Source: Zoogloea sp. (lineage in GTDB: Bacteria > Pseudomonadota > Gammaproteobacteria > Burkholderiales > Rhodocyclaceae). Taken from it: 64,000 nucleotides of DNA. The position numbers were made by a program, and so were the translations under genes. The notes under the pieces were generated by a model, which was not told where the DNA came from, ran no database searches, and saw only the letters and a list, made by a program, of their open reading frames with translations. Position 1 is the stretch's first letter. Each line of letters begins with the position of its first letter. The DNA lies in contig NZ_JAOAUU010000022.1 of NCBI RefSeq assembly GCF_030157465.1, positions 1 through 64,000 on the forward strand, given 5' to 3'. Positions 23,502 through 39,986 of this stretch are shown here, one piece after another.

Positions 23502-23690
23502 ATGGAAAGTCTTTACCTTCTCATCCCGCTTTCGATTGTCCTGGTTTTCGTGATCGGGCTGATTTTCTGGTGGTCTGTACGCAGTGGCCAGTTCGACGAT
23601 CTGGAGGGGCCGGGCTACCGAGTGGTGAGCGACGACGACGATCCGCCCACCGAGGGTGGCCCGGCACGGCGCCCGAAAGCCAAGCCCTGA
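23502..23690 (+). CDS. ccoS: cbb3-type cytochrome oxidase assembly protein CcoS
   Basis: 62 residues: one N-terminal membrane helix (about 5-25) with the family's IPLSIVLVFVIGLIFWWSVRSGQFDDLEGP pattern broken here only for naming, then a polar acidic tail. CcoS is needed for cofactor insertion into cbb3 oxidase. It follows ccoI by 9 bp, its constant partner. Confidence 0.92.
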   Translation: MESLYLLIPLSIVLVFVIGLIFWWSVRSGQFDDLEGPGYRVVSDDDDPPTEGGPARRPKAKP

Positions 23691-23730: not shown

Positions 23731-23772
23731 TTGATTAAGATCAAGTCGGCCCCCTGAACACTTCTGCATACT
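23731..23772 (+). promoter_or_regulatory. FNR/ANR box and class II anaerobic promoter
   Basis: TTGATTAAGATCAA (23731-23744) is a perfect FNR-family site (TTGAT-N4-ATCAA). CATACT (23767-23772) sits where the -10 must lie if the site is centred at -41.5, placing the start near 23779. No coding start follows; the transcript would end at the terminator at 23865-23891. Confidence 0.75.
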
Positions 23773-23778
23773 TCGCGC

Positions 23779-23891
23779 CAGGTTGAAGACGCAAACACGA
23801 GCAACAAAAAAGCCGTCTTCCTGGCACGCGGTGCCAAAAGCTGAAGTCTCTCTGTTGGGGTTGGGGGTGCGCGATGCGCACCCTTTTTTTT
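23779..23891 (+). ncRNA. candidate FNR-controlled small RNA
   Basis: About 113 nt from the predicted start to the end of the U-tract, lying in a 409-bp stretch without a gene between ccoS and ndk. Predicted folds: hairpin 1, 23778-23791 with 23814-23824 (11 bp with a 3-base bulge) and a 22-base A/C-rich loop; hairpin 2, TGGCAC-GCG-GTGCCA at 23822-23836, partly competing with the foot of hairpin 1; then an unpaired stretch with CUCUCUGUUGGGG; then the terminator hairpin with eight U. A perfect FNR box at -41.5 precedes it. An A-rich loop and a U-rich end are suited to Hfq, whose gene is also in this window. Small reading frames crossing it have no ribosome site. Function resembling FnrS/AniS is inference from regulation, not from sequence similarity. 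Confidence 0.65.
23865..23891 (+). terminator. terminator of the candidate small RNA
   Basis: GGGTGCGC (23865-23872), loop GAT, GCGCACCC (23876-23883), then eight T. A perfect 8-bp stem with full T-tract. Confidence 0.92.
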
Positions 23892-24099: not shown

Positions 24100-24525
24100 A
24101 TGGCTATTGAACGCACCCTTTCCATCATCAAGCCCGATGCCGTCGCCAAGAACGTAATCGGTCAGATCTACGCCCGTTTCGAAGGCGCCGGCCTCAAGGT
24201 CATCGCTTCCAAGATGGCTTACCTGTCCGAGCGTGAAGCCGGCGAGTTCTACGGCGTGCACAAAGAGCGTCCCTTCTTCAAGGATCTGGTCTCCTTCATG
24301 ACTTCCGGCCCGGTGATGATCCAGTGTCTGGAAGGCGAAGGCGCGATCGCCAAGAACCGTGACCTGATGGGCGCCACCGACCCGAAGAAGGCCGCTCCCG
24401 GCACCATTCGCGCCGATTTCGCCGAATCCATCGACGCCAATGCCGTTCATGGCTCCGATGCTCCGGAAACCGCAGCCGTGGAAATCGCTTTCTTCTTCCC
24501 CGGCATGAACGTTTACAGCCGTTAA
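24100..24525 (+). CDS. ndk: nucleoside-diphosphate kinase
   Basis: 141 residues, standard length. Transfers the gamma phosphate between nucleoside triphosphates and diphosphates via a phosphohistidine. Seen: N-terminal [12 protein letters not shown], and the active-site His in [12 protein letters not shown]. Ndk is upstream of rlmN-pilW-rodZ in this lineage. A CGGAG ribosome site precedes the ATG. Confidence 0.98.
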
Positions 24526-39634: not shown

Positions 39635-39719
39635 TGGTGCCCAGAAGAGGACTCGAACCTCCACGCCTCGCGGCACTAGTACCTGAAACTAGCGCGTCTA
39701 CCAATTTCGCCATCTGGGC
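39635..39719 (-). tRNA. tRNA-Leu (anticodon CAG), copy 1
   Basis: 85 nt with encoded CCA. Acceptor arms GCCCAGA/TCTGGGC, anticodon stem CTAGT/ACTAG with loop TTCAGGT giving anticodon CAG (reads CUG), a variable arm with GTGCCGCGAGGCGT of class II type, and T-loop GGTTCGAGTCC. Identical to the copy 267 bases away. Confidence 0.97.
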
Positions 39720-39901: not shown

Positions 39902-39986
39902 TGGTGCCCAGAAGAGGACTCGAACCTCCACGCCTCGCGGCACTAGTACCTGAAACTAGCGCGTCTACCAATTTCGCCATCTGGGC
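39902..39986 (-). tRNA. tRNA-Leu (anticodon CAG), copy 2
   Basis: Base-for-base identical to copy 1 over all 85 nt including CCA, and the identity extends about 8 bases past the 3' end (AGCATTT), so it arose by recent duplication or is kept equal by conversion. It has its own promoter and terminator. Confidence 0.97.

Follow-up and report, generated by a model that had tools for sequence, protein, structure and literature searches.

A conserved, probably FNR-activated small RNA gene next to the cbb3 oxidase genes of Zoogloea and other Rhodocyclales

The window analyzed here, a stretch of 64,000 nucleotides from Zoogloea sp., very probably carries a real and conserved sRNA gene that is activated by FNR, as judged from sequence comparison. 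No description of this RNA was found in the literature searched, which had most subscription journals outside it, and the sequence-only reading of the locus had likewise known of none. It is likely that the gene encodes a trans-acting sRNA of the Rhodocyclales that blocks ribosome-binding sites. When oxygen falls, FNR or a close Crp/Fnr-type relative would turn on this stand-alone gene by activating a sigma-70 promoter from position -41.5, and the transcript, mostly 65-115 nt long, would end at an intrinsic terminator. The predicted partners of its segment GUCUCUCUGUUGGGGUU(GGGG), which directly precedes the terminator, are (CCCC)AACCCCAACAGAGAG-type sites located at a ribosome-binding site or shortly ahead of it; pairing there would keep ribosomes from starting. 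From the sequence we infer such transcription, the response to oxygen, repression and the participation of a chaperone.

All elements that the sequence-only reading had named at this place are present in the window, i.e., the box, the CATACT -10 hexamer, the 41.5-base spacing, the length of about 113 nt and the terminator with eight T (Table 1). The predicted start at 23779 lies 41.5 bases after the box centre. The box is the single match to TTGA-N6-TCAA in the 64-kb window, and since chance would give 0.52 matches and at least one occurs in 41 of 100 shuffles, the box by itself is not beyond chance. No sigma-70-type site with a -35 turned up here in a simple scan for promoters, as would be expected of an activator-dependent promoter. 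Among five terminators found in 3 kb, where shuffles let one expect 2.7, the stem at 23863-23885 has the most pairs. It is the comparison with other genomes that raises the site above chance, as the core, the box and its distance to the -10 are found together again and again.

Table 1. Elements of the candidate sRNA gene and its neighbours in the window.
Feature	Position	Strand	Basis
ccoS (FixS-type cbb3 maturation protein), upstream neighbour	23502..23690	+	Pfam FixS 4.5e-21
FNR-type box TTGATTAAGATCAA	23731..23744	+	read from sequence; centre 23737.5
-10 hexamer CATACT	23767..23772	+	36 nt from box start
Predicted sRNA, about 113 nt	23779..23891	+	class II spacing and terminator
Variable 5' part, two predicted hairpins and A/C-rich loop	23779..23844	+	
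Highly conserved segment GUCUCUCUGUUGGGGUU, proposed target-pairing seed	23846..23862	+	alignment of best 30 of 151 loci; complementary sites before start codons
Intrinsic terminator, GC stem (23863-23885) and eight T	23863..23891	+	
ndk, downstream neighbour in own genus	24100..24525	+	Pfam NDK 2.5e-55

With a 201-base query, the sRNA has matches at the DNA level in 151 of 199 genomes of the family and none in the other 48, absence being defined as no match at E <= 0.01 in this search. Within the genus of the window most of the sRNA unit aligns, with 75-87% identity; in other genera the matches listed are mostly limited to the last 45-50 bases, with 80-98%, and weaker matches in the family reach down to 80% identity. 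This 3' core, consisting of GUCUCUCUGUUGGGGUU and the terminator, recurs across the Rhodocyclales. In an alignment of the best-scoring 30 of the 151 loci, 37 of 47 core positions are invariant. The cores from named genomes were chosen by the exact letters of the segment (18 exact core bases), and the invariance of the segment is thus partly due to the selection of best-scoring loci and exact-letter picks. The scan of named genomes returned at least 119 stretches, and the matches listed among them comprise 80 loci from Azoarcus, Aromatoleum, Thauera, Zoogloea, Dechloromonas, Azonexus, Accumulibacter, Uliginosibacterium, Denitromonas, Tepidiphilus and others. The sequence-only reading had named the lack of box, -10 and terminator in close relatives as a refutation; they are present there (box and -10 at the expected distance in 29 of the best 30 of 151 loci), which leaves its claim unrefuted. 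What the comparison of sequences shows is the gene unit with its box, -10, terminator and conserved segment, and its place in the cbb3 cluster.

A covariance model of the core, R1, gives E <= 0.01 in 129 of 399 genomes of the order, and 15 matches reach at least 48 bits, 13 of them from the own family, one from family f3 and one from family f32; the f3 hit (G369) comes from an assembly with 6% contamination. Twenty-five R1 loci (L036-L060) were inspected. Ten of the 15 matches of at least 48 bits (L036-L045) are among them, all with ccoS nearby, and in the remaining 15 (L046-L060) both ccoS and the segment are missing from the stretch examined, which for L053 did not include the R1 match. A wide spread through the order was therefore rejected, and the RNA is read as confined to the Rhodocyclales and near kin, where core copies with a diverged terminator would escape R1. 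A search of plasmids for the sRNA gave no match.

The promoter was surveyed in 120 cores (L001-L030, L036-L045 and L061-L140, leaving out L031-L035 and L046-L060), of which 111 are distinct. Among the matches listed, 105 of these 111 have an FNR-type TTGA-N6-TCAA box within 320 nt upstream, and in 101 of the 105 the best -10, searched at offsets 28-45 with ties broken towards 36, lies at offset 35 or 36, i.e., at the class II distance; in the best 30 of 151 loci the box stands 35-36 nt ahead of the -10 in 29. The six cores without a near box comprise three chance hits (L072, L074, L127), one sequence in which just 48 bases precede the core (L131) and two loci with an ompW gene (L019, L112), which are discussed below. 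The form TTGAT-N4-ATCAA occurs in just 14 of the 105 boxes among the matches listed, next to 37 TTGAC-N4-GTCAA and 54 mixed ones, and Crp/Fnr-type regulators accept the latter two forms as well. This would suit another protein of that type in place of FNR, e.g., a DNR-type sensor of nitric oxide; however, the window's own box has the complete TTGAT-N4-ATCAA form, and cbb3 genes are a classical setting for FNR, ANR and FixK, so that we regard a different regulator as unlikely.

As a rule the gene is set in the order ccoS–sRNA–ccoN, between the cbb3 assembly genes and ccoN, and the own genus has ndk in the latter place. Every one of the best 30 of 151 loci has ccoS upstream, L019 at a distance of 1.3 kb. 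For the named genomes, subtracting the three chance hits from the 80 loci leaves 77, and among these matches listed ccoS lies directly upstream in 70 and ccoN (for which the query is COX1 by Pfam) directly downstream in 68. Five of the nine named loci without ccoN have <300 bases left in the available sequence. Among the seven without ccoS, two (L065, L131) offer <200 bases of room, L112 is an ompW locus, and for L066, L079, L089 and L139 ccoS was undetected though box and core are present. The location between ccoS and ndk, as originally described, thus holds for the own genus and gives way elsewhere to ccoN as the downstream gene. All six loci with ndk downstream among the best 30 of 151 belong to the own genus, to which this arrangement is restricted among the loci seen; a further Zoogloea sp. 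(L128) has the order ccoI-ccoS-sRNA-ndk-rlmN as in the window, with a closely similar RNA.

As the RNA is directed towards the next gene of the cluster, it could also be the 5' leader or attenuator of that gene, ndk here and ccoN elsewhere, which FNR would drive, with the terminator as a read-through control. We consider this improbable, since the core remains unchanged though the next gene differs (ndk in 6 of the best 30 of 151 loci, ccoN in 68 of the 77 named ones among the matches listed), and for the same reason a leader of ndk was rejected. Moreover, a second FNR-type box follows 45-300 nt past the core start in 68 of the 77 named loci (L061-L140; among the matches listed); ccoN therefore seems to own a separate box, and this second box probably serves ccoN. 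A leader would also explain neither why the linker is conserved nor why other genes carry the sites.

In L019 (1-3049) and L112 (1-8000) a gene of the ompW family (Pfam OmpW, 3e-45 and 1.2e-41) separates the core from an FNR-type box and ends with a stop codon 11 nt ahead of the core. In this arrangement the core would form the 3' UTR of an mRNA that is probably driven by FNR; a switch between a stand-alone and an mRNA-derived sRNA is possible. These two loci would fit the idea that the core is generally an sRNA processed from the 3' UTR of an FNR-driven mRNA, with the short independent transcripts being secondary. Against it stands the near box of 105 of the 111 cores, 101 of them with the class II -10 (among the matches listed) and the window likewise, which makes an origin from an mRNA hardly probable and favors the stand-alone gene.

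The stand-alone transcripts predicted for the 105 boxed loci among the matches listed are 64-207 nt long with a median of 94 nt. At the upper end, in L009 and L138, the transcript would have about 207 nt, double the usual length, with box, -10 and core unchanged. The 5' part varies in length and sequence from genus to genus. Here the hairpins and the A/C-rich loop of the sequence-only reading are found: they are predicted in the window, yet they belong to the variable part, whereas the conserved part is the 3' linker. The single sequence folds no better than its shuffles do (z = -0.09; 84 of 200 shuffles equally good). Evidence from covariation for the 5' hairpins is mixed: in seven own-genus sequences five pairs have compensatory changes, yet other pairs are broken, with an unfavorable covariation term (+0.18). 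In the predicted ensemble the conserved segment is only partly free, with a mean unpaired probability of 0.8 for UGUU, 0.2-0.5 for UCUC and 0.1-0.4 for GGGG. A credible reading frame had been denied from the start, and indeed no ATG frame of at least eight codons lies wholly within the window's own predicted transcript. A coding RNA was rejected, as such a frame occurs in just 7 of the 105 predicted transcripts among the matches listed.

Pairing of the segment with ribosome-binding sites is supported in relatives by the sequences in front of start codons. CUCUCU had been suggested as a seed for target prediction, and the statistics support an enrichment of complementary sites before start codons, clearest before one type of dsrC. 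In 121 genomes the pattern CCAACAGAGAG-N1-15-ATG has 35 matches versus 4 for the reversed pattern, 10 of the 35 (one in G094) being the antisense of the sRNA gene itself. In 23 own-genus genomes CAACAGAGAG-N0-20-ATG has 48 matches versus 4 for its reversal, of which 17 are RNase P RNA sequence (two called by Rfam, the rest because their letters are the same or differ at one base) and 3 lie antisense to the sRNA gene, so that 28 remain; for CCAACAGAGA-N0-20-ATG in the same 23 genomes the numbers are 22 versus 5, with 3 of the 22 antisense. Antisense matches were recognized by eye via the flanking terminator. The RNase P RNA (L183 1383-1775, L205 1386-1771) carries CAACAGAGAG, which is the exact 10-nt complement of the sRNA segment; this likeness is probably a coincidence that confounds target scans.

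Because a reversed pattern loses its likeness to a Shine-Dalgarno sequence, a control with this part fixed was used. With AGAGAG-N8-ATG fixed and any A/C five-mer in front, 52 matches were obtained (121 genomes, same draw). CCAAC is the commonest of the 32 prefixes with 8 matches in 7 genera, one antisense match excluded, versus <=3 for any other. The nine other prefixes of the same composition average 1.7, which corresponds to a Poisson probability of 3e-4 with shared ancestry ignored, and the eight CCAAC hits are not all independent since three dsrC and two cytochrome c leaders are among them. One of the eight (G068, L244) comes from a genome without an sRNA match in the family search. The genes behind the sites encode DsrC (three genomes), SdhC, a thiol-peroxidase-type redoxin, a sulfite/nitrite reductase, an FMN reductase, cytochrome c (two genomes, one Pfam-checked) and a DsrE-like protein (below the Pfam cut-off), and in the own genus a flavohaemoglobin, malic enzyme, MlaC and a MOSC protein.

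The search of the window's own genome yielded no convincing target. Here the laxer pattern AACAGAGA-N1-15-ATG shows no excess (3 matches versus 2 for the control), and the leaders of the hmp-like gene, maeB, mlaC and sdhC contain no strong site, the maeB leader having only gagaggg and the mlaC leader aaaagag. Four candidate targets, sdhC among them, did not hold up: CAACAGAGAG is found in 2 of 20 scored maeB leaders, with 10 more loci unscored, in 3 of 10 scored mlaC leaders, where the start pattern missed 13 of 23, and in 3 of 7 close hmp-like homologs, with ACAGAGAG in 1 of the 7. Three of four distant hmp-like homologs, the own genome's included, have no site, and the start of the fourth falls outside the reading. 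For sdhC, the strict site occurs in none of 20 leaders of the genus, the window genome's included, and the Shine-Dalgarno-like AGAGGG in these leaders gives up to -20 kcal/mol. The proposal that the sRNA trims aerobic functions is only partly borne out and not established: flavohaemoglobin, SdhC, the thiol peroxidase-like protein and malic enzyme fit it singly, but the best-supported target is of the DsrC type, sdhC of the own genus lacks a strict site and the own genome lacks an excess of sites.

DsrC is a sulfur-relay or redox protein, and as far as leader sequences can tell a DsrC-type gene is the best-supported target. DsrC (PF04358) was found at 74 places in 19 of 69 genomes and is absent from the window's own genome by Pfam. 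In the 31 of 74 leaders examined, we divided the genes into two kinds by N-terminus and score, a division of our own. Twelve leaders of the first kind, with an N-terminus that is mostly MI-V/I-NG--I-TDAEG, have pairing energies with the segment of -21 to -42 kcal/mol (median -34), and the other 19 of -12.5 to -29 kcal/mol (median -20). The difference has a Mann-Whitney p of 3e-5 with ancestry ignored, which changes to 6e-5 without L294 (the same as L241 of the pattern scan), to 2e-4 with L283 regrouped and to 4e-4 with both. In all 12 genomes with both leaders examined, the MI-V/I-NG--I-TDAEG kind pairs better than the other, and the two weakest of its 12 leaders belong to G017 and G065, which have no sRNA match in the family search. 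The better-pairing leaders vary in sequence (CCCCAACCCCAACAG, CCCCTAACCCTGACAGAGAG, CCAACCCTAACAGAGAG, CCCCAAACCCCACAGGAG) with the pairing kept. In L292 the site is upstream of the Shine-Dalgarno sequence and not over it.

Enterobacteria, Neisseria and Pseudomonas are known to have oxygen-responsive sRNAs, and FnrS is a non-coding repressor of mRNAs. The window RNA is best read as working like FnrS and AniS while being a member of neither by Rfam, which gives nothing at gathering level for it. Rfam includes an FnrS family, and no FnrS match is listed for the window. FnrS of enterobacteria is reported to have an FNR class II site at -41.5 before a short RNA (PMC3032703), which the window RNA shares; setting and segment are different, and the overlap in targets (malic enzyme, sdhC) is sporadic here. 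The same source describes the betaproteobacterial AniS of Neisseria, located by bfrA/bfrB, with a predicted class II FNR site, a 5' stem-loop, an unstructured region and a terminator (PMC3032703). The window RNA is similar in class, site, stem-loop, unstructured region and terminator, but lies by cco genes. For AniS (RF02274), L097 scores 17.9 bits versus a cut-off of 50 and the window is not listed, and strong hits of model R1 are limited to the own family plus two others of the order. SicX of Pseudomonas aeruginosa is likewise a low-oxygen sRNA, controlled by ANR; unlike the repressor proposed here it activates translation, namely of ubiUVT, and its authors found no homolog beyond the species (PMC10247376).

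The sRNA S17 of Bordetella is reported to have a segment that is conserved across betaproteobacteria and pairs at ribosome-binding sites, and is in this respect similar to the window RNA, whereas its locus adjoins coq7 and it is raised in Bvg+ mode (PMC11722255). Rfam gives no match to the S17/bdhR1 "toxic" sRNA family (RF02278). S17S 2-28 was compared via the published primer 171R alone, which reads back TGGTGGATTTAGCCC... and, to judge by its number, would probably reach into the end of S17's conserved block. That the window RNA belongs to a described betaproteobacterial family, S17/bdhR1 or AniS, is very improbable: the 27 fully conserved nt of S17 are reported to occur also in Aromatoleum and "Candidatus Desulfobacillus denitrificans" (PMC11722255), and our core is found in the same "Candidatus Desulfobacillus denitrificans" record (L106, AP021857) and in an Aromatoleum (L119), but the primer sequence is absent from the core and neither RF02278 nor, at 17.9 versus 50 bits on L097, RF02274 is matched.

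Rhodobacter SorX and SorY (RF02784, RF02651) reach 22.8-31.8 bits, below the gathering cut-offs of 46.6 and 111, and membership was rejected. The scores arise because CUCCCUGUUGG precedes the terminators of these alphaproteobacterial RNAs; it stands right before a GC-rich terminator just as CUCUCUGUUGG does in the window RNA. SorX and SorY are reported to act under stress, with effects on TCA flux or polyamine transport (PMC7074977). The weak likeness, CUCYCUGUUGG before the terminator, is repeated in the window (23811-23891), L097 (4169-4235), L106 (3230-3292) and L119 (2399-2494) and may be chance, convergence or old kinship.

Only tentatively, and with rather low confidence, one could go further and see in the RNA an ancient oxygen-responsive riboregulator of the Rhodocyclales cbb3 cluster, which has one type of DsrC as its best-conserved target, shares CUCYCUGUUGG with SorX/SorY and drifts between a stand-alone gene and an ompW 3' UTR. 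If true, the targeting of DsrC would tie oxygen limitation to sulfur or thiol signaling. Azoarcus, Thauera, Zoogloea, Dechloromonas and Accumulibacter belong to a group that matters for denitrification, the degradation of aromatics and wastewater treatment, and this would be an oxygen-responsive sRNA for that group. That so conserved a segment keeps its place next to the cbb3 genes suggests that low-oxygen control has a further, unstudied layer, for which the dsrC leader is a directly testable target, and the collected loci suffice to build an RNA family. Elsewhere in the window, two tRNA-Leu(CAG) genes of equal length and Rfam score lie on the minus strand at 39635-39719 and 39902-39986, with starts 267 bases apart.
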